A stretch of DNA of 37,046 bases from contig CALFSX010000051.1 of the NCBI GenBank assembly GCA_937916515.1, forward strand, positions 1-37,046. Reading direction: 5' to 3'. A program made the position numbers and the translations under genes. Below are positions 6,600-31,564 of the stretch, piece by piece. Source of the stretch: an uncultured Planctomycetaceae bacterium (GTDB taxonomy: Bacteria; Planctomycetota; Planctomycetia; Planctomycetales; Planctomycetaceae). The first letter of the stretch is position 1. Each line of letters starts with the position of its first letter. Below the pieces are notes generated by a model. That model made no database searches. It was not told the DNA's origin and saw only the letters and a program-made list of their open reading frames with translations.

Positions 6600-6849
6600 C
6601 CTGAAAACTAAAGGCGTTCAGCAGTGAACCACAAACACTGATATTGTGAACTTGCTAAAGATTCGCCCGAATCCTGCATTGATGAATGCCGCAAAGAACG
6701 TTGTTTAAAAATGCATGTTGCAAATCCAAACACCTGCATCAACGTGATACGCAATACAGGTGCAGCAGCAAATGCCAGTTGCTGTGCGTTGTTCTATGCC
6801 AGCCTTGCCAGGCAGTATAAACCCGCCGTGCGGATTATTTTATTCCGAT
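6600..6849. other. Upstream region of the first sigma-54 RNA
   Basis: There is no gene here. An inverted repeat CAGCAA-7-TTGCTG (6766-6784) lies about 90-110 bp upstream of the predicted RNA start, a typical distance for an enhancer-binding activator of sigma-54 polymerase. No activator gene is in the window. Confidence 0.4.
6766..6788. promoter_or_regulatory. Candidate upstream activator site for small RNA 1
   Basis: CAGCAA (6766-6771) and TTGCTG (6779-6784) form a perfect 6-bp inverted repeat with a 7-base spacer. The right part, TTGCTGTGCG (6779-6788), recurs exactly at 7154-7163 upstream of the second RNA. The placement fits a bacterial enhancer-binding protein site. This is inference from position and recurrence only. 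Confidence 0.4.
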
Positions 6850-6865
6850 TGGCACATCGTCTGCA
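6850..6865 (+). promoter_or_regulatory. Sigma-54 (-24/-12) promoter of small RNA 1
   Basis: TGGCACATCGTCTGCA matches the sigma-54 consensus TGGCACGNNNNTTGCA. GG and GC are present at the invariant 12-base spacing. With the -12 base at C6864, the start falls near 6876, only three bases before the first RNA stem. A near-identical arrangement precedes the second RNA. Confidence 0.8.
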
Positions 6866-6875
6866 TAAGACATTT

Positions 6876-6957
6876 CTCGGCAGGAAGGTGCAACGGCCCG
6901 CTACCTTCTTGCCATTCTGGTTGCGAGCGGCCCTTCTTCGGAAGGGTCGCTTTTTTT
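6876..6957 (+). ncRNA. Structured small RNA 1 (paralogue of RNA 2), sigma-54 driven
   Basis: Predicted to be about 80 nt, with two hairpins. Hairpin 1 pairs 6879-6889 with 6903-6913 (11 bp, one G-U) around the 13-base loop GCAACGGCCCGCT. A linker TTCTGGTTGCGA follows. Hairpin 2 pairs AGCGGCCCTTC (6926-6936) with GAAGGGTCGCT (6941-6951) around a UUCG tetraloop, and a T-run completes an intrinsic terminator. The second copy at 7284-7369 keeps the loop, the linker and both stem lengths exactly, while the stem sequences have changed on both sides. I recognise no named RNA family. A trans-acting RNA with the 13-base loop as seed is the simplest guess. No open frame with a ribosome binding site lies in it. 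Confidence 0.8.
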
Positions 6958-7257
6958 ATGCGCCGATTCCACATATGCAAGAAACCCATGTTGACGGCAA
7001 TCTTTCCGTTCGCAGGAAGGGACAATGCCTTGCAGTCGCGGAAACGATTGGGCGTTCAACGGAAACAAGAACCGAAACACAGCCGGTGGTTGTGGCAAAT
7101 TCCACTGGCGAAGCGTTCTGCTGCGGCAAATTCGAACGCCAATGAGTTCACTTTTGCTGTGCGAAAACGGGCCGTGAAATTTCCAACTGTGATTTGGAAC
7201 GCGTAATTAGCTACGAAACACGGTTGAAACCAAATTCTGCTTAGCGAAACATGCTTT
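6958..7257. other. Spacer between the two small RNAs
   Basis: No gene is supported here. The spacer holds a second copy of the candidate activator block TTGCTGTGCG (7154-7163), about 120-130 bp upstream of the start of RNA 2. A GCGTTC/GAACGC inverted repeat lies at about 7116-7139. It also contains GGGCCGT (7169-7175), complementary to seven bases of the RNA loop; this may be chance. Confidence 0.4.
7154..7163. promoter_or_regulatory. Candidate upstream activator block for small RNA 2
   Basis: TTGCTGTGCG is identical to 6779-6788. It lies about 130 bp upstream of the predicted start, against about 97 bp for RNA 1. The difference of about 33 bp is close to three helical turns, which would keep the same face of the DNA. 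Confidence 0.35.
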
Positions 7258-7273
7258 TGGCACGGATGATGCA
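7258..7273 (+). promoter_or_regulatory. Sigma-54 (-24/-12) promoter of small RNA 2
   Basis: TGGCACGGATGATGCA matches TGGCACGNNNNTTGCA at all but one defined position, with the exact GG-to-GC spacing. The predicted start is near 7284, three bases before the first stem, the same geometry as in copy 1. Confidence 0.85.
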
Positions 7274-7283
7274 TTACTAGTTT

Positions 7284-7369
7284 GCAGGTGGAAAGAGGCA
7301 ACGGCCCGCTCTCTTTTCATCGTTCTGGTTGCGAAGCGTCTCTTTCCTCACCGAAAGAGACGCTTTTTT
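7284..7369 (+). ncRNA. Structured small RNA 2 (paralogue of RNA 1), sigma-54 driven
   Basis: Predicted to be about 85 nt. Hairpin 1 pairs GGTGGAAAGAG (7287-7297) with CTCTTTTCATC (7311-7321), 11 bp with two G-U pairs, around the loop GCAACGGCCCGCT, which is identical to RNA 1. The linker TTCTGGTTGCGA is also identical. Hairpin 2 pairs AGCGTCTCTTT (7335-7345) with AAAGAGACGCT (7354-7364) and ends in TTTTTT, an intrinsic terminator. The conserved loop on covarying stems suggests selection on an RNA, not on DNA sites or a protein. After the terminator both copies continue TATGCGCCG. Pairs of paralogous small RNAs that share a seed are known in other bacteria (OmrA/OmrB, GlmY/GlmZ). Confidence 0.82.
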
Positions 7370-7448
7370 ATGCGCCGTTATTAAATCAAACGCCAGCCAA
7401 ACCTCCGGAACACGCTTGGCGCAACATATCCCACCCGCTGGAATCTAA

Positions 7449-7684
7449 CGCCCGCCGAGGAGTCCCGGCCTCGGCGAAACGCGGGTTCTTCAACATATCC
7501 CGTCGCGCCTACGCCACCGCCCGCCGGGGCGTCCCGGCCTCGGCGAAACGCGGGTTCTTGAACATATCCCGTCGAACCTACGCCACCGCCCGCCGGGGCA
7601 TCCCGGCCTCGGCGAAACGCGGGTTCTTGATCATATCCCGTCGAACCTACGCCATCGCCCGCCGGGGCGCCCCGGCCTCGGCAA
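7449..7684. repeat. 69-bp tandem repeat array (three units plus a partial fourth)
   Basis: Units begin with CGCCCGCC at 7449, 7518, 7587 and 7656, so the period is exactly 69 bp (23 codons). Each full unit carries CCCGGCCTCGGCGAAACGCG, GGTTCTT, ACATATCCCGTCG and CTACGCCA. Units two and three are nearly identical and unit one is more diverged. The array has no stops in some frames on either strand, which creates spurious long open frames. Its right edge encodes the last residues and the stop of the hisN-like gene. Confidence 0.93.
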
Positions 7685-8459
7685 GGATTTGCATGACTTC
7701 GGCGGTGAGGGCGGGGGTGGTGGAGACGCCGTCTTTGCCCATGATGTCTTCGTTGCCTTTCCAGTCGGTGCAGACTCCGCCGGCTTCGCGGACGATGGGG
7801 ATTAAAGCTGCGATGTCCCATGGTGACATTTCGGGGTCAACGGCCAGATCGGCTCGCCCGGTAGCGACCAGCATGTGTCCGTAGCAGTCTCCCCAGCCGC
7901 GAGCGATTCGGACTTTTTTCAGGAAGGTGGGCAGGACGCTTTCTCGGCCGATGCGGACATCGTGAGTTGGTTCGGTGAACATCATGCGAGCTTTGCTGAG
8001 CTGCGTTTCGCCGGAAACTTTGGCTTGAGTTGGTTCGGCGTCACCGATTTTCCACCATGCTCCGGAACCTTCGCAGGCATAGATGACTTCGTCCAGAGCT
8101 GGCATTCGGCAGACTCCGGCCACCATTCGACCTTCAAATTCGATACCGACCAGAGTTCCGAACAGGGGGACTCCGTAGATGAAGGGTTTTGTGCCGTCGA
8201 TCGGGTCGAGAATCCAGCGGTAGCCGTTTTTGCTGGGTTTGTCGTCAAATTCTTCGCCCAGAATGCCGTCATCGGGGAAGGAGACCGCTAAAGCGTCGCG
8301 AATCAGCTGTTCGGCTCCCTTGTCTGCGACGGTAACGGGCGAATCGTCAGCTTTGGATTCAATTCCCAAAGTTTGAGAACGATAGTGGCTTAAAATCAGC
8401 GTTGCGGCTTGTTGAGTGATAGAAAGAGCGAATTCCAGGCGAGATTGGTGAGTTGACAT
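7647..8459 (-). CDS. hisN: Inositol monophosphatase-family histidinol-phosphatase
   Basis: The product has 270 residues and matches the inositol monophosphatase superfamily, of the type that dephosphorylates histidinol phosphate in histidine synthesis. The metal-binding motifs are complete: GEE at 68-70, DPIDGT at 85-90 (in WILDPIDGTKPFIYGVP) and WD at 214-215 (in SPWDIAALIPIVREAGG). The start is the ATG at 8459, giving MSTHQSRLEF; upstream in-frame codons add non-homologous sequence. The last residues (EAGAPRRAMA) and the stop come from the 69-bp repeat array, so the native C-terminus may have been replaced. No other histidine gene is near. The narrower substrate is inferred from overall resemblance; related enzymes act on inositol phosphate. 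Confidence 0.88.
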   Translation of the reverse strand: MSTHQSRLEFALSITQQAATLILSHYRSQTLGIESKADDSPVTVADKGAEQLIRDALAVSFPDDGILGEEFDDKPSKNGYRWILDPIDGTKPFIYGVPLFGTLVGIEFEGRMVAGVCRMPALDEVIYACEGSGAWWKIGDAEPTQAKVSGETQLSKARMMFTEPTHDVRIGRESVLPTFLKKVRIARGWGDCYGHMLVATGRADLAVDPEMSPWDIAALIPIVREAGGVCTDWKGNEDIMGKDGVSTTPALTAEVMQILAEAGAPRRAMA

Positions 8460-10682: not shown

Positions 10683-13600
10683 CTATTGAAACGGATTGCG
10701 CCAGATGATTGCTGTGCCGTCCTCGCTGGCCGAGGCGATTGTTCCGGATTCGGAAACGACCAACGATGTAACGGGGGCCTGGTGAGCGATGGCTTTTCCG
10801 TTTGCCAGCAACTGAAACGCTTCGTAAGCGGCAAGTCCTGACTCACCTACTCGCTGGGGTTGCCAGTTCCAGATGATGGCGGCCCCGTCAGCTCCACCAG
10901 TCAGCAGGTAAGATGAATCCGGCAGAAAAGCCAGGCTGCGAATTCCTCCCGCTTCGTGACCGGTGATTGTTGCATGCAATTGGGGAGCCGACATATCGGA
11001 AAGATCGTAAACCCAGCCAGCGCTGGAACCGCTTTCTGACAATTGCCCGGCCAATGCGACAAACCTGCCGTCGCTGGAAAAACAGCCGGTTTCCAGCCGG
11101 ATCGGCTCTGTAGACTTCAGCTGAAACTCTACAAGCGGCGTTTCGGGATTCGCTAAATCAATGATACTGAATTGACCTGCCCGATTCACCAGCAGCACCA
11201 ACTTTTCATCGGGCGACCACGACGCCTGAACAATAGCAACGCGTTCGCCATGAGGCTGCGCAATATCAAAGCCTGCTCTGTCGGGGCCAACCGCTTTCAG
11301 GCAACTTTCAATCGTGGCCTGATTCAAAGCAGCATCCCAGTTCCAAAGCAACGCAGAACCGTCGGCTCCACAACTGACAAAGCGATTTGCATGGCTGTTG
11401 GGAGCAAAACAGAGCGAAGTCACGACTCCCCGGTGAGGATCGCTGATCTTGAAAATCGTCTGACCAAATCTCTCACTGTCTTCTGCAGCATCAAAAATTC
11501 GGATCGCTCGATCCCCCGTTAACAGTAGAGGATGTTCGGCGTTTGGCGACAATGCGGTTGAATGCACGGCGTACAAAGGGCGAAAGTCGGCCAGGTGAGC
11601 GTTGTCGTTCAGGTTCCACAAGTGAGCAGCGGTGCCGTCGAACGTGGCGACAATGCCCGGCTGATCTGCGCTGGCTGGCCCTGCAACTGACTTTGATGTA
11701 CCGTCCGTCCCGTCAGTTGATGCAACCTGGGCGGCTTGTTCGGGAGCGAACACGGCATCAGAAATTCCAAGCCCCGGTGCGTTCAGCACTTTGGTGATCT
11801 TCCAGTCGGCAGTTCGAAAAATCTGCAGTTTGCCATCAACGACAGCCGCCAGACGGTTTCCATCGTCCGACCAGCTGATGGCCGAAATACGACTCGGAAG
11901 TTTTCCGGCAACCACAGCGGGATGAATTCTTCGCTGCGGGTTTGTCGCATTCAGTGACCACAGTTGTAATTCCTGAGTTGTCGCCCTGGTGGCCTTGTCT
12001 GTGCGAACGCTGATGGTCACAAACTGCAGTTTGTCTGGCGAAAAGCTGAGCCGTTCCACGGGAATATTGTCGTGTTGAAAACGGCTCACGACAGAAAGGC
12101 GTGTTCCGGAATCGTCGAGCCCCAGCCGTTGCAGTCGTCCGTCAAAGCCAGCGCTAATCAGGTCTCCATTGGGCAGCCATTCCAGGTGGCTGACGATCGT
12201 GTTTTTCGCGTGCATCTGGCCGCCGGCCAGAAATGTTCCATCCGCCAGCGTCCAAACAGCAACTCGCCCATCGCGACCGCCCGTGGCAATCGTCATTCCG
12301 TTCTGGCTAAAACTCACCGTACTGACTTCGCTGTCGTGAAAGCCCTGCAAGGTTGAATAGGTTTGCGGATCGGTGTTGTGCAGAATTTCGTCCGTCTTCC
12401 AGATTTTCGTGACGCCTTTGCCTTCCACTTCTGAAGCAGCCATTGACGCGGCCAGAAACGTCCCGTCGGGCGACGCAGAAATTGCGTTAACCAAACCAAG
12501 CCCCGGAAGACGAACTTCCTGAGCTCCCGCGCCGGCTTTAGTGGGATCGGCGTTCCACAGGCACAGATTGCCGTCGAATCCGGTCGTCATCAACACGCGA
12601 CCATCGGGAGGCAGAAACTTCAGGCGAGCAACGTTGAAATCGTGACCTTCTTCAAACGACGCACTTTCCACCACAAAGTGAGTGCGACTGGAACCACCGG
12701 AAATCGGCGAACCATCTTTCGCATTCCAGATAACGGCTGTTCCGTCGGACGCTCCCGTCACAATCCGCGATCCATCTTTGCTGATGGCAATGGCATTCAA
12801 CGCTCCTCGCTGAACGGCAGAATCGGCATTCACAACAATCTGGTCAGCGGAATCTGACGGCTGCGAAGTGACGGACGATTGGGCGGCGACTTTATGTCCG
12901 GTTAAAATATACGGTGATCGATAAGTGGCAGCGGCGTTAGTGTTCGACGCCGGTAAATTGTCTTCGTTCTGAAATGCTGATTCGATGTCCTGTCGTTCTT
13001 TGGCGTACGTGCGAACATCCCAGAACCGGCAGAAGTGATCTGCGCTCGCGGAAAGTACGGTTTTGCCTTTGGCGTCCAGAAAACCGGCTGCATTCACTTT
13101 GGCTCCATGGCCCAGCATGCGTTGTTGAAACGTCAGAATTTCGTCGGTAGAACTGGCCAAAGTGCTGCCTTGCACGTGCCAGATTCCGATGGTGCGATCA
13201 TCGGATGCCGTCACCACGCTAAGCCCGTCCGCAGAAAAGCGAATATCGTTGATCGGGCGCTGATGTTCGCTGGCGACCCAGCCAGAAAAACCTTCTGCCT
13301 GCAGATCAGCGGCATGAACAAATGGAAAACGGTCTCCACTTGTCATGTTGTCGGCGGGACGAACTGGCAGTGCCATCAGGTCTCCGTTGCGGCTGTTGCT
13401 GATGAGCAGTATTTGTTCGTTGGGGGCCACACAAATGCGATTGGGTGGGTCATTGCGGTCTCGAGGAAATCGCAACTGTCCCAATCTTTGCGGGCGTTCT
13501 GTGGGAGCGTCGTCGGGAGGCAACTGATAGGCCAGAACGTCTGATGATTCGCCCCCGCGAGACCCCGCGTACAGAAACACTCCTGCCTTAGGCATCAATG

Positions 13601-16600
13601 CCAGGCTGCGAATGCTGGAACTGCTGCGAATGGACCACAATGGAAGTTGCGTGTCGATGTTCCACGCCTTGATCACTCCACTGGTATCCGCAGACAGCAG
13701 TAGATTTCCGTTTAACGCAATCGTTGAAACGGCGGCTTCGTGCCCTTTCAGAATATCGTGCTTGTGACTGGCGACATTCCATAAGTAGAGCGACTTGTCT
13801 GCGGCCGCGACGATTAGTTCTTCATTTTCGCTGACCAGTACCTGAGCGACCGCGGCATCAACGTTGAGTGTGTCGAGCGGTTTGGCGGGCAGCTCTTCGC
13901 TGCCCTCATTAAGGTGCCATGCGGTTAACAGGCCATTGCTGTCGCCCCAAACGATCGTGCGTCCAGACGGGCTGATCACCTGAGTCTGTACGGGAGCTTC
14001 TGTAACACGTGTGCGTTTCAGCAGTTGTTGTTTGCGTGCCTGAAGTTCCAGAATGCGTTCCTGTCTTTCATCGGCAGGAAGGTCGGCCAAAGCGGTATCA
14101 CTGTTCAGCAGTTCTTCAACTCGCTGAAGCGCGCCGGAATAGTCGGCGCTGCGAATCAAGCTGGCGATGAACGCATTTTTCAGTTCAACCTTCGCTCTGG
14201 CTTTTTGTTCGGTCAAGCCCGCCACCTCCAACTGGATGGCCGCTTTTTCTGTTTCAACCTTGGCAACTTCTGTCTGAAGATTTTCCTTTTCAGACTTCAA
14301 GACATCCTTTTCAGCAAGCAGCTTATCTTTCTCCATAGATAGTTCCTGCTTTGTGGCAACCAAGGTATCTCGTTCACTGGTCAATCGAAGCTTTTCTTCT
14401 TTCAGCGAAGACTGTTCGGCCAGTAGCTGTGTTTTTTCTCCCAGTAACGCTGTTTTTTCTTCGACAATTCGATTTTTGTCTTCTTCCAGCGTCAGCTTGT
14501 CCTGCTCCAGAGTTTCCTTGTCGCCATACAACGAAGTGATTTCGTTGTTCTGTTTTGTGATCTCGTTGTTCTGTTTTGAGATCTGAATCGCCTGAACGAA
14601 CGAGATCGCTCCCACAACGGCGATCAGGCAAACGGCTATCACAGTGGCAGATTTCAGCCCGTTGCGAAGACGCCGAGAACGCGACAGCTTTCCGGTGAGT
14701 TCAACAAATTCCGGGCCACTTTCCTGTTCGGCAATTTGCAGGCCAAGGTCGTAGTCGCCTTTTGTGTGAGCCAGACCAGCATAGGCCAGACGCGTTTCAC
14801 GAAGCCCTTCAACCGCCGCATCATTTTCCGGCCACGCCACAAAAGCCTGCTCGAATAACGCCGCTGCCGTTTGATAGTCATGATAGCCGCGTTTGAGCCC
14901 ATCAGATTTCGCGTGCTGCAGGCTTTCGCCAGCTCGTTCAGAAACTCGGCGGCTTTCTTCGTGCTTCTGAAACTTCTTTACCGCATCCTGAAAACCCAGC
15001 ACGCTTTGATGTCGGTCTTTTCGAGACGCCGACATGGCCTTGCGGGCGATGTCCATCAGTTCGCCCTTGTGACTCGTTGGGCGAATCGCATTCTGTCGAA
15101 CCACTTTGTCGATAATCACCCACAGGCCGCTGTTGCCAGCATCTTCTTCCGGTTCAGGAAACGAATGCGGCGACTCTCCCGTGATGATCTCAAAGAGGAT
15201 GGCCCCAAGCAGATAAATGTCGCTCCAACGACCAATGGCTTCCGGAGGACCGGTCCACAATTCCGGAGACATGTACGCCGGTGTTCCAGCGCCAAAAGCC
15301 GCCGCCGGTGACGCGAATCGTTTTTTGTCGGCTGCTATGGCAGGAACAGCAAGGCCCCAGTCCAGAACAAGAACTTCACCGAACTCACCCAACATAATGT
15401 TTTCGGGCTTCAGGTCGCGATTCACCACGCCATTGTGGTGCGCGTACGCCATGGCGTCGCACACTTTGTGAAGCACTTCCAGGTTTTCTTCCAGCGACAT
15501 TTCCCGAATGCGCTCGTTCCACGGCGTGCCGTGAACGCGTTTCATCGAATAAAACGGGAACCCGTCGTTTGTCTGGCACAGGTCGTGAATCGGGATGATG
15601 TGCGGATGTACCAGATTCGCGGTCACCAAAGCTTCAGAAAGAAACATTTCCCGACGCTGATGTTCAACCTGGCTGATTCGCCCCTGAGCTGTATACGCCT
15701 GACGCTCTCGATCCTTCATAGGTTTCAGCGTCTTGATCGCCAGTTCGCGATCCAGAGACGTTTGTTTGGCGATAAAGATGGCTCCCATGCCACCTTCCGC
15801 CAGCTTTCCGATGATCTCGTAGTCGGGCTTGTCTGCTCCACCACTGTCTCTAAACTGATCGCCGCCAGCAACTGGGCGGCTGCGAATTGTGAGCGTTTGG
15901 TTAAGCCCGTGCGCCGATTGTTTGCTCCAGATCTGCGTCTTACGCGCCATCAGGGAGCCGTCATCTTCGTCTGACGGAGGCTCTTCGATGGAAGTGTCAG
16001 ACGCCGATTTTTCGGACACTTCCTTCTGCCATTCTTCGTACTCATCTTCCGACAAGCCGCGCATGCCCATGGTCCGAGAAAACACTTCTGTTTTTTCGAA
16101 GCCCGTTGCCACATTGGCAACAACTGTGCCGAACGTGTCGCTGCCGGACTTCTGAGAGTTCGGATCAGGCTGCACCACAGTTTTTGCAAACAGGTCTTCG
16201 GAATCGTCCGTTGAGCGTCCGTCATGTCCGGCTGTGGGAATAACCTGAGTGGCAGTAAAATCCGGAGCTGGAGGACGACCTTGTATCACGTTGGTTTTTG
16301 CAAATACATCTTCTTCTTCGTCGGTCGAATTCTCAGGCTGATTGCCGGACGACATACCGTCAAACGTGGGAGTTTTGGAAGGCACAAACGTTTTATTGGG
16401 ATCGTTGTCCGGAATACCGTCGGCGGAACCATCGCCTGCGGCTGCGTCGAAACTGAAATCGTGGTGAGTTGGAGTCTTGGATGGCACCCACGTCTTCTTC
16501 AGGTCGCCGTCACCAGTTGGAATCTCGTCTGGCACGACCGTATCGTCGAGATTGATTCCATTAACGGTAGGTGTATCAGATGGCACCCAGGTCTTTTCGA

Positions 16601-17174
16601 AGTCGGCCGATCCGTCTGTGCCTGATCCAACATCTGCCATATCTTCCGCCTCGGCAAAGGCAGATTGAGACGTTTCTGGCGGCACCCATGTTTTTTCGAA
16701 ATCATGAACGCCATCATCGTCCTCACCATCGACTTCCAGACCGGTTCTGGTTGGAGTTGTGGTTGGCACCCACGTTTTCTTGAAGTCTGAATCCTCAGGT
16801 ACAGCAGTGTCCTCGTTGGTGCTATCGCTTTTGCCGCTATCTTTGTCTTCGCTGGGCACCCACGTCTCCTTTTTGTGGATCGGCTGCTGCTGTGACGAAT
16901 CGGCTGGCTCTGCTTCGCTGGGCTCTGTTGCAGACACATCATCGATGTCTGACTCAGGCAACGCCGATGCTGGCAGAAAATCAGCCTTTTCTGCGGCGTT
17001 ATCCTGGTTCTTTCTGCGCGCACGTTTTTCCGACAACGGAGACGAAATCGGATCGCCAGCAACGCCCATGTCCGGTTCTGGAAACGGGTTGATGGGAATG
17101 CCGTTGACGAGATTCCTGGGGCGATCGGATTCTGGGTTGTCGTGACCGTCTTTGTTGTTGGTCATTGCTGTCAC
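10683..17174 (-). CDS. Transmembrane Ser/Thr protein kinase with WD40-repeat tail
   Basis: About 2,160 residues. Residues 100-420 are acidic and disordered and carry a repeated K-T-W-V-P-S motif. The kinase domain spans about 448-730, with YEIIGKLAEGGMGAIF (glycine loop), AIKTLK (lysine), VVNRDLKPENIM (catalytic loop, NRD in place of HRD), LDWGLA (DWG in place of DFG) and GTPAYMSPEL. A helical stretch follows, then one membrane helix at about 845-865 (ATVIAVCLIAVVGAISFV) and a long Glu/Lys/Leu coiled coil to about 1000. WD40 repeats (GHEAAVSTIA, IVTGASDGTAVIWN, LLTGGADGAAIIWNW) fill the rest, probably outside the cytoplasm. The GTG at 17174 overlaps the stop of the upstream giant gene (GTGA); an ATG at 17165 is the alternative start. 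Confidence 0.93.
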   Translation of the reverse strand: MTAMTNNKDGHDNPESDRPRNLVNGIPINPFPEPDMGVAGDPISSPLSEKRARRKNQDNAAEKADFLPASALPESDIDDVSATEPSEAEPADSSQQQPIHKKETWVPSEDKDSGKSDSTNEDTAVPEDSDFKKTWVPTTTPTRTGLEVDGEDDDGVHDFEKTWVPPETSQSAFAEAEDMADVGSGTDGSADFEKTWVPSDTPTVNGINLDDTVVPDEIPTGDGDLKKTWVPSKTPTHHDFSFDAAAGDGSADGIPDNDPNKTFVPSKTPTFDGMSSGNQPENSTDEEEDVFAKTNVIQGRPPAPDFTATQVIPTAGHDGRSTDDSEDLFAKTVVQPDPNSQKSGSDTFGTVVANVATGFEKTEVFSRTMGMRGLSEDEYEEWQKEVSEKSASDTSIEEPPSDEDDGSLMARKTQIWSKQSAHGLNQTLTIRSRPVAGGDQFRDSGGADKPDYEIIGKLAEGGMGAIFIAKQTSLDRELAIKTLKPMKDRERQAYTAQGRISQVEHQRREMFLSEALVTANLVHPHIIPIHDLCQTNDGFPFYSMKRVHGTPWNERIREMSLEENLEVLHKVCDAMAYAHHNGVVNRDLKPENIMLGEFGEVLVLDWGLAVPAIAADKKRFASPAAAFGAGTPAYMSPELWTGPPEAIGRWSDIYLLGAILFEIITGESPHSFPEPEEDAGNSGLWVIIDKVVRQNAIRPTSHKGELMDIARKAMSASRKDRHQSVLGFQDAVKKFQKHEESRRVSERAGESLQHAKSDGLKRGYHDYQTAAALFEQAFVAWPENDAAVEGLRETRLAYAGLAHTKGDYDLGLQIAEQESGPEFVELTGKLSRSRRLRNGLKSATVIAVCLIAVVGAISFVQAIQISKQNNEITKQNNEITSLYGDKETLEQDKLTLEEDKNRIVEEKTALLGEKTQLLAEQSSLKEEKLRLTSERDTLVATKQELSMEKDKLLAEKDVLKSEKENLQTEVAKVETEKAAIQLEVAGLTEQKARAKVELKNAFIASLIRSADYSGALQRVEELLNSDTALADLPADERQERILELQARKQQLLKRTRVTEAPVQTQVISPSGRTIVWGDSNGLLTAWHLNEGSEELPAKPLDTLNVDAAVAQVLVSENEELIVAAADKSLYLWNVASHKHDILKGHEAAVSTIALNGNLLLSADTSGVIKAWNIDTQLPLWSIRSSSSIRSLALMPKAGVFLYAGSRGGESSDVLAYQLPPDDAPTERPQRLGQLRFPRDRNDPPNRICVAPNEQILLISNSRNGDLMALPVRPADNMTSGDRFPFVHAADLQAEGFSGWVASEHQRPINDIRFSADGLSVVTASDDRTIGIWHVQGSTLASSTDEILTFQQRMLGHGAKVNAAGFLDAKGKTVLSASADHFCRFWDVRTYAKERQDIESAFQNEDNLPASNTNAAATYRSPYILTGHKVAAQSSVTSQPSDSADQIVVNADSAVQRGALNAIAISKDGSRIVTGASDGTAVIWNAKDGSPISGGSSRTHFVVESASFEEGHDFNVARLKFLPPDGRVLMTTGFDGNLCLWNADPTKAGAGAQEVRLPGLGLVNAISASPDGTFLAASMAASEVEGKGVTKIWKTDEILHNTDPQTYSTLQGFHDSEVSTVSFSQNGMTIATGGRDGRVAVWTLADGTFLAGGQMHAKNTIVSHLEWLPNGDLISAGFDGRLQRLGLDDSGTRLSVVSRFQHDNIPVERLSFSPDKLQFVTISVRTDKATRATTQELQLWSLNATNPQRRIHPAVVAGKLPSRISAISWSDDGNRLAAVVDGKLQIFRTADWKITKVLNAPGLGISDAVFAPEQAAQVASTDGTDGTSKSVAGPASADQPGIVATFDGTAAHLWNLNDNAHLADFRPLYAVHSTALSPNAEHPLLLTGDRAIRIFDAAEDSERFGQTIFKISDPHRGVVTSLCFAPNSHANRFVSCGADGSALLWNWDAALNQATIESCLKAVGPDRAGFDIAQPHGERVAIVQASWSPDEKLVLLVNRAGQFSIIDLANPETPLVEFQLKSTEPIRLETGCFSSDGRFVALAGQLSESGSSAGWVYDLSDMSAPQLHATITGHEAGGIRSLAFLPDSSYLLTGGADGAAIIWNWQPQRVGESGLAAYEAFQLLANGKAIAHQAPVTSLVVSESGTIASASEDGTAIIWRNPFQ

Positions 17175-20100
17175 CGTACCTGCTGTGTTGAATCAACTGC
17201 GGAACAGCTGATTCCCGGGTTAACTTCTTGTGGTGATGATTCATGATGAGCCTGCCGCAATCGACGCACTGTTCTGGCCGCCGAACTCAGGCTAATGGCG
17301 GACAAATCCTGCCGACGCCTCCAACGCGCCGCAGTGGTCAGCCCTACAACAGGAGCCAGCAAGACCGCGGTCGCCGGTGGCGTTTCATCGTGTTCGGATG
17401 TTTCGCGAATGGTAAACGTGCTGTCGGAGTCATTGTGGTCTTCTGCCCCTGCAGCGGAACTTTGTTGGGCGGTCGATTCGCTCGAACTTGCTGTTACTTG
17501 TTCCGCAGGCGGCAACGCTTCACGACTTTCTGCGATGATCAATGGTTCAGTTTCTGCAGGGATAACGGCAGACGTTTCCTGAGGTGGGTCTGGAATTGCG
17601 TTTCCGTTCTCGTCCGGTTGCTGGTATTCCAGTTCTTTCAATTCGTACGGTTCAAATAATCCAGGCAGCTGTTCCGTGGCTGGCCCCGGTCGTCCACCTG
17701 TCACTTCAAACTTTACAATCGGGCGCTCGACCTGCTGACCACTGGTTTCGGTAATCAGCCAGACTTCATAGCCGCTGCCATCCTGTAACACGGGGTTTTC
17801 GCGAACGAACTGTTCAAAGCTTTCTCGATTGGAAATAAAGCTGTTGTCGGTAATTCGAGGAATCACAACTTCGGCTTCGGCGTCCAGTTCGAAATGACGG
17901 CGAATCTGCAGATACACGTCCGTGCCAATGGCCGCATCACTGGCAGCTCCAGAACCCAGATTGATATCCGTGACCACGCTGGAAACAATGGAACTGGCGA
18001 CAGGTGCTTCCACAAACGGCGTATCGTTTGCCGGACGTCCCGACGACACAAAGGGAAGAATTCCGGGACTCGGCCCTGCGATGAATTCCCATTCCGCTTC
18101 GCCCACTGGACGACCGGTGGGAGTTACCACGGTGTTGTCCATCGGTAACTGCGCCGCTTCCTGATTGAAACTTTGCAAAGGATTAGTGTCCGTGGAACTT
18201 AACAAGGCCAACCCCGCGTCCGGCAGAACAATTGGCTGGCCTGCCGCATCAAACACAGTCGCCACGGGAACTGACGATGTAAAGTCGGGAGGTGTTTCCA
18301 CGGTCGCTGTGCCGGGCACTGTTGCAGAATTGCCCCAGATGTTAATTGATTCGTGTTGAGCAACACTGAAGCGAACTCCAATGATATTCGGGTTGATTTC
18401 TCGCCCATTTCGATCGTGCACGGTTGTGACCAGATCGGCAATCGCAAACAAGTGTGGCACCTGATAGATGGATCCACCAGCATCGATGTAGTAGATCGTC
18501 TTGTCTGCGTCCGTCACGTCAAATTCGTAAGTGTCCGGCGATCCCACCACCGCGGTCGCGTCGCCTGCGGGGCCAGCCGGGTTAAGACTGGTTTGAGAAA
18601 CCACGCCCCAGTCGATCACAACTTCCAGGTTTTCTTCGCCGCCGACACCAAACACCAACTCAATGGTGCCCAGAAATTTACCATCAACAAACGTCAGACT
18701 GCTGCGCATGTTTTCTGCATCAGTTAACGTAACAAACGCCGTTTCAGCTCCTGTTGTAGCAGCCGCCGCGAAAGCCGTGGGACGTGGAGCGATCTGTTTG
18801 GCGACACCGCCGTCTGTGCGAACTTCCACGTTTTCGCCCAGAGTCACCGTGCCATTGATGCCGGACGACCCCGCGATAATTGTCAGCTTGTCGCCGGTTA
18901 CGTCGTCGAAAACTCCCGCGGTCGGGTCTTCGTCTGACGTGATGATGATATTGTCGGCTAACGTGAAGTTTCCACCGCGGCTGATCAGACTAATGGTTTC
19001 GTCGATACTGGTGGTTAGCACGTTGTGAGCCGCATTCACATTTTGAATGACGGTCAGATCGCCTTCCGACGTGATATTGATATCTCCAGCGTTGGTGTCG
19101 ATGCCTGTACTGGCGGTGAAGACCAGTTTGCCGATCGTCTGCGAACCAACCTGGTCAATCAACAGCTCGTCGGCATCAAAGAACGTGATCGCTCCCAATC
19201 CCGACGGCAGGCTGCCATCAGCAAGGTTGATCGCGGAATACACATCAACGTCGTTCGGTGCGGCTCCCAGCAGAACATCGCCCGCTGCGGATTCCTGACG
19301 GACTCCCAGACTTGCGGCGGTGATGAAACCGCTTGTCGTTTGCGAAATCGTGCCGTCTGCAACCAGACGAACATCTGCCGCGGCTGCGTTCACCTGCTGG
19401 CGAAGTGTCAGTGAATCTTCTGAATTGATCAGAACATCGCCGTCTGCCGATTTGACGCCGTCCGTCTGAGCAAACGTGATGTTGCCAATGGTTTGCGAGC
19501 TAACGGAATCGACAGCCAGTGCAATCTCGTTATTGAAGCCAATCGTTCCGGCTGTGCGGTCGTTGATAATAGAAACGACGTCAACGCGATTGCCATCATC
19601 CAGCAGCACGTCGCCGGCAGTTACGGATTCCTGTCGAATCGCCAGTTCATTGGCCGCAATGATGCCCAATGCAGACTGCACCACGTCATCATCCGCCAGA
19701 ATACGAACGTCTCCATTGACAAAATCGATCTGCTGATTGATCGTCAAACTGCCATTCACATCCAGCAAAGCATCACCCAAAAGTGCTCCCTGAATTCCGT
19801 CAATACCAGCAAACGTGATGTTGCCACAAGTGGCTGCCGCTACGGAATCGATGGTCAGATCGTCGATATCCCGGTACACAGTCTGTCCTGAATCGGCAGC
19901 GTTGGATGTCGCCAGCACGTCAACGTCGTTGCCGTCATCCAGCACAATATCACCGCTGGAACCGAATTGATAAATGCCCAGCTCTGCCGCTGTGATGGTT
20001 CCTGCAGCCGATTGCGTAATGTCATTGCCGGCCTGCAGGTATGTGTAACCAGTGCCGCTGTTAATCGCAGAATTCAATGTCAGCGAATGCGTGGCCTGAA

Positions 20101-23100
20101 CATAAATGAATACATCTGCATTTGTAGTTGAAACACCTGAGACCACCCCCACTGCGATATTGCCGATTGTCGTCGGCGCAACGGTGCCAACAATCAAATC
20201 GCCCGCTGAATTGATAGCCACCTTTCCTCCACCAACATTGCTCACGGCAATGGTGTTGATGAAATTGTTGTCATCCAGCAACACATTCGCTCCCGGCGAA
20301 AGCTGCAGCACGGCAAGCTCATCGGCGACAAAGGTTCCGTCGCCTGTTTGTTGAACATTACCATTGGCCATAATCCGCGTGTCCGCAGTACCAGAATTGA
20401 CCTGCTGATTGATATCCAGTGTGCCTCCGGAATTCACCACAACATCACCGTTGCTGGTGTGTATTCCACTTGTTTCCGCAAAGTTTGCCTGATCCAGCGT
20501 TTGTGCCGTAACCGTGCCAATTATAAAATCGTCGACATTCTCAAACGCGACAACACCACCAACAGCCGTATTCTGAATCGCCACGGTGTTCACGTCATTG
20601 GCATCATCCAGCACGATATCGCCAGTTGCCGCCTCATTGCGAATGCCAAGTAAATCTGCCGTAATCGTGCCAGCCGCCACCTGGCTGATGGCACCTTTGC
20701 TAAGAATGCGAACGTTGCCAGTTCCGGCGTTCAGTGTTTGGCTAATCGTCAACGTCGTGCCAACATCCAGCAACACATCGTTGTTACCAGACGTCAGACC
20801 ATGAACGCTGCCAACGGCATCAATGCTGATCGCGTCAAGATCTTTGTAAGTGACGGCACCAGTGTTATTACCCGCCAGCACCGCCACGTTGTTGTATGCA
20901 TTAGTAAGTTCAAATGTGCCGGAACCGTTAAGCACAAGGCTTCCCGCAAGAATTTTTGAATTCGTTTGCGGCGTGGACGGCAGTCTTTGAGACACGACAG
21001 CCGACGCCGCTTGACTAATAGTAGCCACGCCGCTGCCCACATCGATGGCTGTCAGGTCACAATCCAGATCGACAAGTTCCAATGCCGCGGAATCATTGTT
21101 GATCGCTAAATCACCACTTGCCTCCCCATCAAACTCCTGCACAGTCAAGTTCAGAGTTTCGCCCTGCCCAGACTTGAACAGCAATCGCATGGCGTTGACA
21201 TCGATTACACCAGTGCCACCCGCTGCAACATCAGCCGCTTCAATTCTAAGATCACCTGACACGGAAAGCGGTGTGGCAGACGATGGCAGTGTCAGAGTTC
21301 CCGTCGCTAACAGCGAAAGGTTGGCAGTGGTAATGGTTCCGCCGGACAAATCGAGATCGTTCGCACTTGTTAGAAACGCGCTGTCAGCCGTAAGGATCGT
21401 TACCTTGCCGCTGCCAGTTTCGTGAACGGCCACGTTTCGAGCCGCGACAATTTCAATTTCAGCAGATCGAACTTCCAGTGGATCTGCGGGCGTTGGTTTA
21501 AACACATCGGAAGAAGCGAACCCGATATCCAGCCCCGCTTCCAGACGCGTCACTCCCGACGACGCCTGAATGTTCAAGGCAGCTCCATTGTTATCGATGA
21601 TGCTTCCGGAGGCGTAAATATCGACAGCGATTCCGGGTGTCGCCAAAATGTCGGCGGTGACCAGATCGATCAGGACATCGCCCACTGCTGCATCAACATT
21701 CACGCTGCCCGAGTATGCCGTCAGAGACGTTGCCAGGATGTCGCCGGCATCGGCCGACAGCGTCACGGAATCTGCAGCCACAACACTTGTCGCCGTAATC
21801 CCCCCACTCGTTGTGGACAGGTATATGCTATCACCCGTGGCTCCCCCGGCGGACACGGATATTGCGTCAATCAGTCCAGCTGCCTGCATGTTGATGCTGC
21901 CATCGGTGGTTGACGCCGTCAGCAGAACTCCGTCTGTCTCATTGATAAATATACTGCCGGCACCGTTATCCGTCGCCATCAATGTTGTGACAGCCGTATC
22001 AATCGCCGCCGTTCCGGACGCTCCAATTCCGTTTTGAGATTTTAGATTGGCAACTTCGGTAACAATGTTTTCAAAGCCCGTTCCATCACCCGCCAGGTTG
22101 TCTGTGATTGCCGCCGACGACGTCACCTGCACGCTGGAAGTCGCCACCAGTTGGCTTAGAGCAACATTGCGCCCCGTGTACAAAATCTCATCTGCACCGG
22201 TGACCGTGCCGCTGGCCATAAAAATATCGCCGGCCAATGAATTCAACACCACGGTTCCTGTCGCCCCCGTTGTGATGTTCGCATTCTGAACAACCGATGT
22301 CGCCACCAGTTCAAGATCACCGGTACTGGAACTTACAACGGCGTTCGTCGTCAGAGTTCCATCACTATTGACGTTCAGATCGCCAGCCCCATGGGCCGTT
22401 ATCACGGAATCTGCCGTCAGGCTGCCGCCAGTGTTCAGATCGATACTTCCGTTGCCCGCCAGAGTACGAACCCCCGTGCCTGCGATCACCAGATCGTTGG
22501 CTTCGTTGACCACTACGTTTCCGCTGGTGGTATTGGTGGCCTGCAGTGAACCAATCTCTGTGTTGATATCCGCAGTTCCAGCGGCTCCAATGCCAGTCGC
22601 CGCCGTCAATGAAACAAAACCTGATGTTGCGATGTTTGCCGTTTCTGCTGCCGAATTGTCGATAACCGATCCCGCTGCACTCGAGTCACTGTCTGCGGTA
22701 ATTGTGATGTTGCCGGACGTACTGGAAACTGACGCCAAACGAACGTTGCCCGTTGCCCCGTAGCCGATGGCCCCCAGAACACTGACGGTTGAAGTACCAT
22801 CCGCCATTGTAATATCACCGCTATCCGCCGTAACGGATATCCGACCGGTGCTCGCGGTGCTGATGGTTGAATTCTGAGCCACCGCGTTGGCATAGACATC
22901 AATATCGCCAGTTCCCGATGAAACTGCCGCATTCTGCGTGAGCATGCCGTCATCTACATTCAACGTCACGTCGCCGGAACCATTCGCAGTGATGACAGCC
23001 GCTGAATTGACAACCAGGTTTCCGGCATCCACATCAACACGGATATTCCCGTTGCCTCCCGTTGTGGAAACCCCTGTGCCAGCAATCGAAAGCTCATCAA

Positions 23101-26100
23101 ATTCGTGAATAACAATGTCACCACTGGTGGAATTCATGGCCTGAACAAAGGCGATATCCGTGTTGATATCCGCTGATCCCGTTGCTCCAATTCCGGTAGC
23201 TGCTGACAAAGTCACCATGCCTGTGTTTGTAAGATTTGCTGACTCCGCAACTGTGTTGTCGGTGATACTGCCAGCAGCTGCCGCGACACGGATGCCACCG
23301 ACACCTGTTGTCAAAGCAGACAATCCAACATCTGTGGCAGCCGAAATACTGATATCGCCGGTTGTCGATTGCAAAGACGTGCCATCCGCCAGAGTGACTG
23401 AACCATTCGTCGCAGTCAGCTGCTGATTTCCATCAACCGTTGTTAACTCACTGGTGGCCAGCACCTGCACATTACCAACGGCCACGCCCGTGATCGCCCC
23501 GGCCGCGTCTGTACGGATATTCGCATTGATGACAAGATTTGTGCCCGCATTCAGATCAACGTTGCCGGTCGCATCCTCTGATGCGTCCCCACCGGTAATC
23601 GTCAACGCGGCGTTAATGGTCAGATGATCGTCGCTGCCACCATCGTTAGTAGATGTCAGGCTGATGCCGCTACCGTCGTTATTGGTGATCGCAGAATTCA
23701 CAGTCAAAGGACTGGCGGCAGACAGCGTGATATTATCGAGCGTGGAATCCTGAACGTCGCTGCCGATGCCGCTGTTGTCCGTGATGGTGATTCCCGACAG
23801 GCTTCCCACGGTGCCCACCGTCAGCGAGCCGGTGTTCACAATGTGAATATCGCCCGAATCTGTTTCGGCGGCGATGGTGTGAGTGACTGCGGCGGCGGAT
23901 GTTCGAGTTTCCAGAGCATCCGCGTCGTCGCCGATACCGGTCAGGGCACTCAGTGACGTGTTGACAGCAATGATGTCCATATGATCGTCGCCGGCATCCG
24001 TGATGGCACCGGAAATTGACTTGACGGAAACGGTGTTCGCGGTGCTAAGCTGCCCAATCGACACATTGCCGTCGGCCTCGACCGTGATGGTCGCGGTGCT
24101 GGCTGAGACCTGAGCTCCATTGGCCATGATGACCTGACCGCCATGGTTTCCGGCTTCGTTGTCGGCGGTAATTGTAATGGCTCCATCAACGGCCAGCACG
24201 TCTCCAAAGCTGCCCAATTCCACGTTTCCTGCCGCGGAGATCTGTATCGTCGACAGTGACAGAGTATTTCGAATCAGGCCGTTTATGATCGTAGCTGCCC
24301 CCGACGGCGCGTTGCCACTATCGCCGATGATGATGGCACCGTTGGACAGCACTTGATCAGATGTTCCGTTGGCATCGATCCTCACGCTGTCAACTGCGCC
24401 GGCTGTAGCAAAGATATCTGAGCCGCGAACGGCAACGCTGCCACCGATATCCAGCGGGCCTCCGCCGAGATACAACTGACCGGCGGCTGTAACGTGAACT
24501 CCACCATGCCCCCCCGTCGGCCCGGAACCGGCATCCGTCCCGGAATTGGTATCGGCCGTCACGATGATTTTCGCTCCGCCACCCGCAGTAACGGTATTGC
24601 TGATGATCACGTCTCGTTCAGCGTTCAGGATGATATCGCTGCCGCTGTTGATAGCTGCTGCGATTGTCAGGTCAACATCACCGCCCTGAATAGAAACGCT
24701 GCCCGCACCAACCTTGACCATGCCGTTGACAGTGGCTCCAGTGATGGACAGTGTCCCTCCAAGCCCCGAGTCACTGCTGACTGTGCCGTCGATCGTCAGA
24801 CCATCAGCAGCGGTCAGCATGATGGCTCCACCGTTGACGAACGTGTCTCCACTGGTCACCGGACCGCTGAAGGTGACATCTCCACCACCTGTTTGATCGA
24901 ATTTGATGCCGCCGTTGCCGGTTGTCAGCGAAGTAACCGTCGTCGCCGTTACCAGAACATTATCAATGTCGATATTGCCGACCGCGGTATCAGCGCTGAT
25001 GCTGGAAGCGGCAGTTTGTATGGCCGTTGAACTGCCCAGGCCGATGCCGGTAGCCGCGTTCAGGCCGACGGTCGCTGCAGTGATAAGTCCCGATCCGTCG
25101 ATGCTGCCGGTGTTCGAGGTAAAGGCGGCCGTTGTTGCGTCAACGGTGGTTGTACCTGTTAACGTCACGTCGCCGAAGCTGGTCAGAGTAAGACTGTTCC
25201 CGGTGTTGGCGTTCACCAGTTCCGTGGCGCTGTCTTCAGTGACACTGACAGCTCCGGCGGAATTGAACGTTAGACTGCCAAAGTTGGTGGCGTTGCCTGC
25301 GTCATCTCCCAGAGTGATAGCACTTCCTGTGAAGTCGGCATGACCGGTGATGGCCAGGTCGCCGTCGGTGCCGTCTGTGATGATGCCGGATGCCGACACC
25401 AGCAGGTTGTTACTGATGGTTGAGAGACCGGCGAACTGCACAGCGTTGATGTCATTCAGAGTCACGTCTTTGCCGGACACCACGGTAATGTCGCCGGCAA
25501 AATCGTTCGCGTTGTCCAGAGTGATATCATGTGTCGCACCGGCCGTCAGGCTGGTCGTGCCGGTGATGGCCAGAGTACCGGACGCTCCATCAGTGATGGT
25601 TCCGACTGTCGTTGCCACCAGATCCCCACCGACGACTGACGTGCCACCAAACTGCAGAGCATTAACGTCGTTCAGGGTCACGTGATTGCCGGACACAATG
25701 GTCACGTCGCCAACGAAGTTGTTGGAGTTGTCCAGAGTGATGTTGTTGGTCGAACCGGCCGTCAGACTGGTGGTGCCGGTGACAGCCAGAGTGCCCGCCC
25801 CGCCATCAGTGATCGTGCCGGAGGTGGTGACAACCAGGGCCTGACTGATGACTGAAGTGCCGCCGAACTGCAGATCGTTGATATCGTTCAGGGTCACATC
25901 TTTGCCGGAAACAATGGTCACATCGCCCACGAAGTTGTTGGCGTTGTCCAAAGTGATGTCATTCGCCGAACCAGCCGCAAGACTGGTTGTGCCGGACACT
26001 GCCAGAGTTGCCGAGGCTCCATCGGTGATGGTTCCGTCAGTCGTTGCCACCAGATGCCCGCTGATAACTGAAGTGCCACCGAACTGCAGATCGCTGATGT

Positions 26101-29100
26101 CGTTCAGTGTCACGTCTTTGCCGGATACCACGGTGACGTCGCCACCGAAGTCGTTGGCGTTATCCAGAATGATGTCGTTTCCCGCTCCTGCAGTCAGGCT
26201 GGTCGTGCCGTCAATTGTCAGAGTTCCGGTTGCTCCATCCGTAATTTGACCGGCAGCATTCAGAACAAGACTTCCGCCGGACAGAGCATCATCAATTGTG
26301 ATCGCTCCAGCGGTTTCCGTCAGAGCCACCAGCCCCGTCCCGCCGCTGCCGCTGAAAGCGATTCCTGTAGCCTTGGTGTCTTCAAACAGAACGTTGCCGG
26401 TGCTGTTGGTGATATCCAGATTGCTGACGATGGTTTCCACAGCGTTGGCGCTGCCGATACCGCTGGCGGCTGTGATGTTCAGACTGGCAGCGTTCACGTC
26501 TGTTGCAATATTGGAATTGCCGACAACGGCTGTTCCGGCAGACAGAGTCACCACGCCCAGTACTCCAGCCCCTGAAGTCTGGACTCCCGTTGTGCCAGTT
26601 GCCTGTTCGAAGCGTAGTTCGTCAGCCGCCGTCAGCTCAATCGTCCCCGACCCATTGACGGATTCAGCAATCACCAAATCGTTGCCAGCAGCAACAACGC
26701 TGATTTCGATCGCTCCACCGACAGCAGAATTAGTGATTCCACTACCGACGCTTCCCAAAGTCAGCGAACCAGCATTACTGATCGCAATCGCGCCGCCAGT
26801 GGAATTCACAGCCGTCAGTTTGTCAACGACTGTATTCAGCGGCGATGCTGTTGAACCGATTCCATTGACGGCTTCCAGCATCAGCGAGTTCACAGTCAGG
26901 CTTCCCGAACCGGTGATCGCAGCGCCGGTCACCAGTTTCAGCACGGGAATCGGCGTCGTGTTGTCTGCCACGTTGATGGTCGAGCTGACATTGATGTCCC
27001 CGCTGTTGGTGTCGCCAATCATCACGGTGCCGGCTGTGATGGTGTTGAGCTCATTATCAGACACGCCAAGCGTACCCGCCGAATCAACGCCTCCGAGATC
27101 AATGTTCGCTCCATTGGTGTACTGTCGAATCGTGACACTGCTGCTGGCGGACGCGGCGACACTGGCTGTGGCATCGATCCTCAGGCTGTCGGTGGCTAGT
27201 GTGATGGTGCCGCCGTTGGTCGCCGTGGTGATGCTTGATGTATGCTGCAATGCAATGCCGGCACTAACCCCGGACCCTCCTGTGATTCCTGTAACTTGAA
27301 CGTCACCTCCACCGGACGTGATTTTGCTAACGTTTCCGTACAGCACAACGCCGCCGTTTCCGTTACCACCACCATTGCCGCCAGTTCCAATCACTGTCAC
27401 AGCAGCGTTGGTGCCCGACGTAATCGTTCCGCCAATGCCGACTGCCACGCCAATACTGTTGCCGCCCGAACTGCCTCCACCGATTCCGGTCACCGAAACA
27501 GCTCCACCGCTGGACGTAATCACCGAATTCGTCTGATACACGAACACCCCGTAATTGTTCGGCGCGGTCCCGCCAACACTTCCTCCGGTGCCAGCCACTA
27601 CTACCATTCCGCTACCGCCGGCCGACACCAGCCCACCGAACGACACATCAACGCCGTGATTAAGCGTACTGGATCCTGCACCACCACCCGTTCCCGTCAC
27701 CTGCACATTGCCGCCGGCGGATGTGATGGACCCGCCGCTTCCTGATACTAGAACTCCCACATTAGCGTTACCAGTTCCCGTCAGACTTCCGCCCTGACCA
27801 GTGACTGTTACAAGGCCGGTTGTGCCGCCGATAATATCGCCGGAAATCCGAACGCCCGATTGATAGCCCGCAGCATCATCTCCACCTTTACCAAGAACGG
27901 TAACCGTCCCTGTGCCGGCTGCCTGAACCAATCCGCCATTAACGTTGATCCCGATGAAGTTGCCGCTGGTAGAAATCGCCTGTTGGTTGGCACTCAGCAA
28001 CAGGTTTCCATCCACGGTCGTCACGGACGAACCGCTGGCAAGAACAATGTTGCGTTCCGCCGTCAATGAAATCTCGCCGTTACCAGTTGCGGAAATGTCG
28101 GCGTTGGAATTCGCAAGGTCGATCGTGCCGACTGCGTTCGCCGTTAAGTCCATGCCTGCAGCCATAGTCACCGTGTTGTTCACGCTGATTCCAGCAGCAG
28201 AGTTCAGAGTCAGGTGCTGATTCCCGGTTGTGACCGAAGTTAGAGTAATTCCATCTGCATTTGTAATTACGGCGGTGGTCGCTCCGCTGATCACCAGCAC
28301 ATCACCGGCAGCATTGCCGAAAATCACGTCGCCGTCGGCGGTTAACGTCATTCCGTCCAGAGTTACGTTGGCATTGAACGTCGCTCCCCCGGCACCCAAC
28401 GTAACATCTTCATGGAACCGAATTTCCCCCGCTGCGTTATCCTGAAACAGGCCACGCAGAGAAATTCCCCCACCGAGGATTCCGGTGAACGTGCGTGAAC
28501 CTGCCCCCACCAACGTCAGTGATTCAGTATCTGCTGTTGTTCCGTCGACTCCACCACTGAAACTGATATCGCCGCTTCCACCAAGACTGGCATCCCCCGC
28601 CAGAGTGATCTCCCCGGCCAAAGCGGCTGCCGTCCCACTGCTATTGGAGATCGATCCAACGCCACTTGCGCCATTTCCGTTGATTGTTAATGCCTCAAAA
28701 CCGATCGCGAAGCCGTTTAGATCCAACGTGCCTCCGTTGACAATGGTGCCTCCCGCAATCGCCCCCAAAGCAGCTGTGTGGCCCGCAGCAATAGTTCCTG
28801 CATCGATGGTTAGCGTGTTGTCAAACGCGTTCGCGCCGGAAAACGTTACCGTGCCGCTGCCGACCTTCACCAGAGTTCCGCTGCCGCTGATTACAGCCGC
28901 GACTTCGCGATTGTTGGCGTCACCGAAGGTCAATGACGAGGCTCCTTCCACTACGATCGAGGTCCCTGCCACCGCAGCCAGGTCGGCTATCACAACGGCT
29001 GCAGCGGCGTCCGGACCGGTGATTTCCAGAGTTTTCGTGCCTGAAAGACTAACCGTTTCGTTGTATGTACCATCGTTGACGATAATTGTACCGTTTGCCA

Positions 29101-31255: not shown

Positions 31256-31564
31256 AAACTCGTCTGCACCTTTCCGTGGGCAGTGAGCATCGACAGGTCC
31301 ACATAATCCAGAAGGTCCGCACAATCGTGTTCATTATCATGCAGACACCGAAACGCATCGCTTCCCCCATCGGCAGAGACGACTTAACTTCGCTCGTTTA
31401 CCATCCGGGAATGTGTGGCGTCGCAGCAATGAATTTTCGCCTTTCGAATTGAAGCGATTGTGCCTGCATTGCGGACTAAACGGATGAAGCCAGCAGATCT
31501 AACAATCATGCCAACCAAAACCCGATGAATGCCAATGCACACGCTATTTTCAGGGACGAACTCC

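Follow-up and report, generated by a model that had tools for sequence, protein, structure and literature searches.

A candidate family of sigma-54-associated small RNAs with covarying stems in Planctomycetaceae

Introduction

The window analysed here is a stretch of 37,046 nucleotides from an uncultured Planctomycetaceae bacterium (assembly GCA_937916515.1, contig CALFSX010000051.1, positions 1 to 37,046 of the forward strand), namely contig C51 of a host genome of 8.33 Mb in 343 contigs. Two alike units, found by direct reading and by alignment, lie 408 bases apart on its plus strand, each consisting of a stem-loop, a linker and a terminator hairpin behind a sigma-54-type promoter element. 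The locus raises the question of whether these units are genes of related RNAs, how far such genes extend beyond this genome and what their products might do. What the comparison of sequences establishes is a conserved structure, a promoter-terminator architecture, a multi-copy family and dispersed positions, and the RNA family appears to be genuine and new to the literature. We consider it probable, at roughly 0.6, that this is a Planctomycetaceae family of sigma-54-dependent, trans-acting small RNAs in which each unit is a stand-alone gene.

Results

Two units of common architecture

The features of both units are given in Table 1. The original prediction had described an identical loop and linker, 11-bp stems and T-run terminators, and its letters and coordinates were verified by reading and alignment. 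It had also placed each unit behind a sigma-54 -24/-12 element at an equal distance, with a start about three bases before the first stem. The distance from the first T of the TGGCAC...TGC element to the stem is 29 bases in both units, and the predicted +1 positions (6876 and 7284) agree with stems beginning at 6879 and 7287. None of 200 dinucleotide-shuffled versions of either unit folds as well as the original (z values -4.40 and -4.43). A BLAST search of the whole host genome recovered unit 2 from unit 1 at E 1.7e-6, and the exact loop-plus-linker pattern has two sites in that genome, both of them being the window units.

Table 1. Coordinates of the features of the two units and of neighbouring genes shared by related copies (window positions unless a locus is named).
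Feature	Position	Strand	Remarks
-24/-12 element, copy 1, sigma-54-type, TGGCACATCGTCTGC	6850..6864	+	equal spacing in 9/9 copies
Small RNA, copy 1, about 82 nt	6876..6957	+	predicted +1 to T-run end; ends predicted
Stem-loop, copy 1	6879..6913	+	11-bp stem 6879-6889 / 6903-6913; loop GCAACGGCCCGCT 6890-6902
Linker, copy 1, TTCTGGTTGCGA	6915..6926	+	mostly unpaired in fold
Intrinsic terminator, copy 1	6927..6957	+	hairpin 6927-6950, 10 bp, TTCG loop; T7 to 6957
ATGCGCC directly 3' of copy 1 T-run	6958..6964	+	also 3' of copy 2
-24/-12 element, copy 2, sigma-54-type, TGGCACGGATGATGC	7258..7272	+	read directly, spacing as in copy 1
Small RNA, copy 2, about 86 nt	7284..7369	+	predicted +1 at 7284; ends predicted
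Stem-loop, copy 2	7287..7321	+	11-bp stem 7287-7297 / 7311-7321; loop GCAACGGCCCGCT 7298-7310
Linker, copy 2, TTCTGGTTGCGA	7323..7334	+	mostly unpaired in fold
Intrinsic terminator, copy 2	7335..7369	+	stem at least 11 bp; T6 at 7364-7369
CMD-family genes beside the RNA	L162:6304-6933, L163:1825-2454, L165:3313-3942		

Relatives of the two units

A DNA search of 58 genomes, the host included, returned one further copy in a genome of the same genus (G005). In the following, G000 is the host genome and the copies found elsewhere are named G003a-d, G005, G006 and G125. A first covariance model, made of the stem, loop and linker of the window pair and the G005 copy with the promoter left out, was searched against 170 genomes of the family. 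Matches at E<=1 occurred in 111 of these and were taken as nearly all due to chance. Thirteen places were read, six of which are genuine further copies and seven are not. Four of the six belong to G003, one to G006 and one to G125, which is of another genus, so that a total of nine copies were found in five of the 170 family genomes and in two genera. The four G003 copies are located on three contigs, two of them as a pair 543 bases apart. The weak model matches in G117, G104, G021, G007, G002, G126 and G008 were rejected as they lack, by eye, the promoter and the family features.

A second covariance model was built from all nine copies and searched against 397 genomes of the class, evenly drawn from a larger group, with 15 candidates scored per genome. 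This model finds the known copies again and reaches E<=0.001 in six of the 397 genomes. The sixth of these, G328, was discarded, as inspection by eye showed neither an upstream TGGCA element nor such a stem. No added match below E 0.02 emerged from a closer search of ten genomes, and six extra weak rows that were read lack, by eye, the promoter and family features and are not members. A loose promoter-plus-linker pattern matched in all 170 family genomes and is uninformative.

A covariance-model search for relatives and a check for promoters upstream of further copies had both been proposed along with the original prediction. The search has added six copies to the three model seeds, and TGGCA[C/T]-N6-TGC stands upstream of all nine. 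With nine copies in five genomes, compensatory stem changes and spaced promoters, the claim that the window holds two paralogous structured small RNAs has held up.

Covarying stems and invariant cores

In the alignment of nine distinct rows, standard pairs occupy 99 of the 99 stem cells and ten of the eleven stem pairs have changed on both sides, involving 28 cells; the earlier reading of stems that differ and still pair as a conserved RNA structure is thereby upheld. None of 500 shuffles matched any of the five covariation measures, and sliding the partner by one to three columns as a control left 45-67% of the cells paired. The loop core CGGCCCGC and the linker core TCTGGTTG are unchanged in all nine copies.

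A test free of structural assumptions was provided by collection scans for the loop and linker letters alone, in which exact cores were required and diverged members would escape. These scans returned 99 places, 82 of them spread over 81 stretches of species genomes and the remaining 17 located in viral contigs. All eleven stem pairs are present at five of the 99 places, while the other 94 have at most nine. TGGCA-N6..8-GC occurs 42-44 bases upstream of the loop core at exactly those five places and at none of the 94 others; no viral place combines stem and promoter. The five structured places are the G005 and G006 copies and three of the G003 copies, which were known already and were reached here by an independent route. 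When the window copies and G125 are added, eight of 102 places have the full stem.

Two further pairings were considered. A pseudoknot between GCAAC in the loop and GUUGC in the linker is feasible in the window copies and was rejected, since it is lost in relatives with CATC or CTTC in the loop. An alternative pairing of CGGCC with GGUUG is possible in all nine copies; both of its sides are invariant, and the short spacer across the 11-bp stem makes its formation doubtful.

Promoters, terminators and the sigma-54 machinery

All nine copies are preceded by TGGCA[C/T], six bases and TGC at identical spacing, and a +1 position set 12 bases on from the -12 C lies 1-2 nt upstream of where the model begins in every one of them, which suggests that the RNAs depend on RpoN. 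A stricter promoter pattern has nine matches in about 115 kb of loci, seven of which are at family RNAs; G003c and G003d miss it by one base. The terminator hairpin is strong in all copies and is followed by a T-run in eight of the nine, and the predicted RNAs measure about 81-92 nt. Directly past both T-runs of the window, beyond the expected transcript end, the letters ATGCGCC are found (the second time at 7370-7376), a feature absent from the original prediction, and ATGCGC 3' of the T-run is common to copies 1 and 2, G005 and G003d.

The sigma-54 DNA-binding domain (PF04552) was found in eight of the nine genomes searched. The exception is G005, whose assembly is 93% complete and consists of about 930 contigs. 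PF00158 is present in all nine genomes, with 28 matches in the host genome; it also matches in 14 of 14 control genomes, so that weak rows are unspecific. Among the PF00158 matches listed, no enhancer-binding-protein gene adjoins a copy and only two (contig C162 of G003) share a contig with one, at a distance of about 80 kb. A search for a shared enhancer site gave no k-mer, dyad or gapped motif clearly above shuffles. Hfq (PF17209) was found in none of the nine genomes, compared with five of the 14 controls. The predicted sigma-54 regulon of Planctomycetia, as far as it is set out in excerpts of PMC12316311, includes chaperones, proteases, UspA, MscS channels and csrA; stress would therefore be at least as likely a context of the RNAs as nitrogen.

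Genomic surroundings

The flanking genes differ from copy to copy. The window pair points toward an opposite-strand gene of the inositol-monophosphatase family and the G003 pair toward an opposite-strand peptide deformylase gene, and a 164-aa frame without a Pfam match overlaps the second copy of the G003 pair. A 209-aa protein of the carboxymuconolactone-decarboxylase (CMD) family adjoins the copies in G005, G006 and G003d. The three proteins are 68-79% identical and all contain the Pfam CMD domain; the RNA is on the other strand in G003d. No CMD counterpart was found beside the window pair. The CMD mRNA was considered as a partner of the RNA and rejected, as the pairing is no better than chance.

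Several other features of the window were observed. A tandem array with a 69-base unit (3.4 copies, 93% matches) at 7449-7682 separates copy 2 from the inositol-monophosphatase-family gene and enters the 3' end of that gene. On the minus strand, a 4717-aa frame at 17171-31324 carries DUF5649 repeats and passenger-associated-transport repeats and perhaps encodes a giant protein of the surface or autotransporter-like type; inside the frame, at 25432-26239, is a 216-base repeat. Also on the minus strand, at 10683-17174, is a 2163-aa protein in which many WD40 repeats follow a protein kinase domain. An Rfam search of the window gave a tRNA elsewhere in the window as the sole family match.

Discussion

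A proposed mode of action

In the proposed mechanism, sigma-54 RNA polymerase, opened by one of the enhancer-binding proteins of the genome, would initiate 2-3 bases upstream of the first paired base and stop at the intrinsic terminator, yielding a product of about 80-95 nt in which an unpaired linker joins a 5' stem-loop to a terminator hairpin. The stem would be a scaffold, because its letters drift while the pairing stays, and the loop core CGGCCCGC and linker core UCUGGUUG would be the working surfaces. It is these invariant cores on a drifting scaffold that suggest a trans-acting RNA. Upon sigma-54 activation the RNAs would pair in trans with mRNAs, without Hfq, and the several copies per genome could raise the dose or join different inputs. 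Base-pairing with mRNAs would be the most likely activity, with protein binding ranked second; both the pairing in trans and the signal that triggers it are inferred. A more elaborate version is a lineage-specific, Hfq-free, multi-copy system that relays sigma-54 activity to a post-transcriptional regulon, its surfaces CGGCCCGC and UCUGGUUG possibly latched to each other by the five CGGCC/GGUUG pairs until a target or a protein opens them. We offer this as a conjecture that is unlikely to be right in full.

Several points weigh against stand-alone, trans-acting RNA genes. The family is patchy: when searched against four other genomes of the same genus, one of which is a single 8.9-Mb contig, the nine-copy model gave nothing below E 0.6. 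The nine-row alignment was fitted to the model structure, which is offset by the structure-free scan, and that the copies are transcribed at all we infer from their sequences. G006 has no clean T-run and reads TCTTCTC, so that the end of its RNA is uncertain. Same-strand frames run through and past two copies, one of 894 aa with a protein kinase domain at G003a and one of 301 aa without a Pfam match at G005. Finally, among 146 linker-complement sites, of which 56 have a start nearby, no target shared between genomes was found, and joint complements of loop and linker outside the RNA genes are about as frequent as in controls (10 versus 9). The joint complement occurs at 19 places, nine of which are the RNA genes themselves; the other ten were all read.

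The search for targets used the exact complement of the linker core, GCAACCAGAA, which has 150 sites in the five genomes. Of these, 146 were scanned, the other four being the RNA genes' own sites, as are three of the 146, and the target check covered all 56 sites with a start nearby and a frame of at least 80 aa. Three related pairs were found among the 56 sites, none of them a conserved 5' site. The L226-L293 pair is 99% alike along the whole frame, while L252-L306 and L287-L306 are 33-35% alike over about 100 aa with the sites at different distances, those in L306 and L287 sitting inside longer frames. The lack of a conserved target lowers the case for pairing without removing it, because pairing may be short or rich in wobbles.

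Two side observations were made in this search. GCAACCAGAA outnumbers its reversed control in each of the five genomes (G000, G003, G005, G006 and G125), at about 1.7 to 2.7 times the reversal in the four of the same genus, with 53 versus 20 sites in G000 and 8 versus 0 in G125; this excess may stem from coding bias. L226 (G000:C246) and L293 (G005:C292) encode what is by eye a histidine-kinase-like protein, 99% identical, in genomes whose RNA copies are about 75% alike. Contamination or recent transfer is a possible source of this near-identity.

Alternative explanations

The same failure to find a conserved mRNA complement would be expected of a sigma-54-driven RNA that acts as a protein decoy or sponge, like CrcZ, the Csr/Rsm RNAs, GlmY or 6S RNA, with loop and linker forming a protein recognition surface presented by the stem. 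We regard this as possible, if on balance doubtful. Both unpaired cores are unchanged over diverged stems and across two genera, the several copies in G000 and G003 fit titration, and the absence of Hfq from the matches in all nine genomes is in keeping with it, whereas a single apical loop offers little repetition of a binding site. Csr/Rsm sponge RNAs carry GGA in their hairpin loops, repeatedly; this motif occurs in the apical loop of none of the nine copies, which argues against a sponge of that type.

The order of hairpin, linker and terminator also resembles an attenuator, and the units might be cis-acting 5' leaders of downstream genes with a conditional terminator. Folds reaching past the T-run pair that sequence with the linker in several copies, and PyrR leader elements of Rfam give weak, sub-threshold matches (E 2.2 and 2.8). 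Yet the pairing of the linker with the 35 nt past the T-run is no better than in shuffles (combined p 0.26, two of the nine single values being near 0.05). Because the copies sit between different genes, they do not form a leader belonging to any one gene, and the window and G003 pairs face an opposite-strand gene. A leader role may apply at G003a and G005, given the same-strand frames that run through and past these copies; for the family as a whole it is improbable. We give still less credence to a dispersed palindromic DNA repeat, such as a REP-like or small mobile element. Four copies on three contigs in G003, a patchy distribution and the hairpin shape would suit it, but the similarity extends from the -24 element to slightly beyond the T-run, with a directional promoter and terminator at fixed spacing, the stems are highly diverged, unlike after recent transposition, and three copies have the neighbouring CMD gene in common. 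Chance resemblance or a small coding sequence is the least credible of all and is already contradicted by the covariation and the letter-only scan. Mechanical frames do cross copy 1 (6711-7145 and 6760-7206) and copy 2 (7282-7884), but none of the three has a Pfam match, and the compensatory stem changes, as well as single-base gaps in G003c and G003d that disrupt a common frame, are at odds with coding. The E value of 1.7e-6 in the host genome and the nine copies likewise speak against chance.

Comparison with known systems

Over 6800-7400, Rfam 15 gave six matches at E up to 10, all below the gathering score, in agreement with the original prediction that no named RNA family is involved. No paper describing the family was found in the literature, judged by titles and abstracts. 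A 'Rhodopirellula-1' motif of Proteobacteria and Planctomycetes appears in the excerpted text of PMC2864571 and carries no Rfam number there. Judged by its sequence features, the family is new but belongs to a familiar kind of small RNA: it is like Pxr, Qrr and GlmY/GlmZ and is filed with none of them, because Rfam gave no match and the features of Pxr and of Hfq-dependent RNAs that were looked for were not found.

As portrayed in excerpts of PMC5568312 and PMC5684412, the Pxr genes of myxobacteria, like those described here, encode stem-looped small RNAs, each have a predicted sigma-54 promoter, occur as divergent paralogues in tandem (in Cystobacter) and are confined to a narrow taxonomic range; the first loop of Pxr is functional, and its host is without hfq, which was likewise not found here. 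Pxr adjoins nla19, a sigma-54-dependent response regulator gene, whereas among the matches listed no PF00158 gene adjoins the present copies. Single-copy Pxr alleles have three stem-loops, compared with two here, the 5' hairpin and the terminator hairpin. Pxr comes from another phylum and was compared with the family by description.

The Qrr RNAs of Vibrio work through Hfq. As in the present family, several dispersed paralogous genes share an unchanged core (excerpts of PMC4211561), which is 32 nt long in Qrr, and transcription is sigma-54-dependent, as is predicted here; by contrast, neither an Rfam match nor Hfq was found here. GlmY and GlmZ of Enterobacteriaceae are also paralogous structured RNAs (same excerpts), and glmY has a sigma-54 promoter, as is predicted for the copies described here. 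They differ in being a distal pair, in their split into decoy and activator and in RapZ, and the present family has no Rfam match to them. To our knowledge, PrrF1/PrrF2, OmrA/OmrB and AbcR1/AbcR2 are not sigma-54 dependent. They resemble the window pair in being tandem paralogous small RNA genes in at least some species (excerpts of PMC4211561), but come from other phyla and, again, are not matched in Rfam by the present family.

According to excerpts of PMC9029176, a survey counted eight distinct Rfam small RNAs in the entire PVC group and 345 in Proteobacteria. Very few small RNAs have been described in planctomycetes, and the family offers a concrete entry to RNA regulation in genomes that gave no Hfq match. 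Its likeness to Pxr, Qrr and GlmY/GlmZ is likely one of convergence, with sigma-54 repeatedly driving duplicated small RNA genes.
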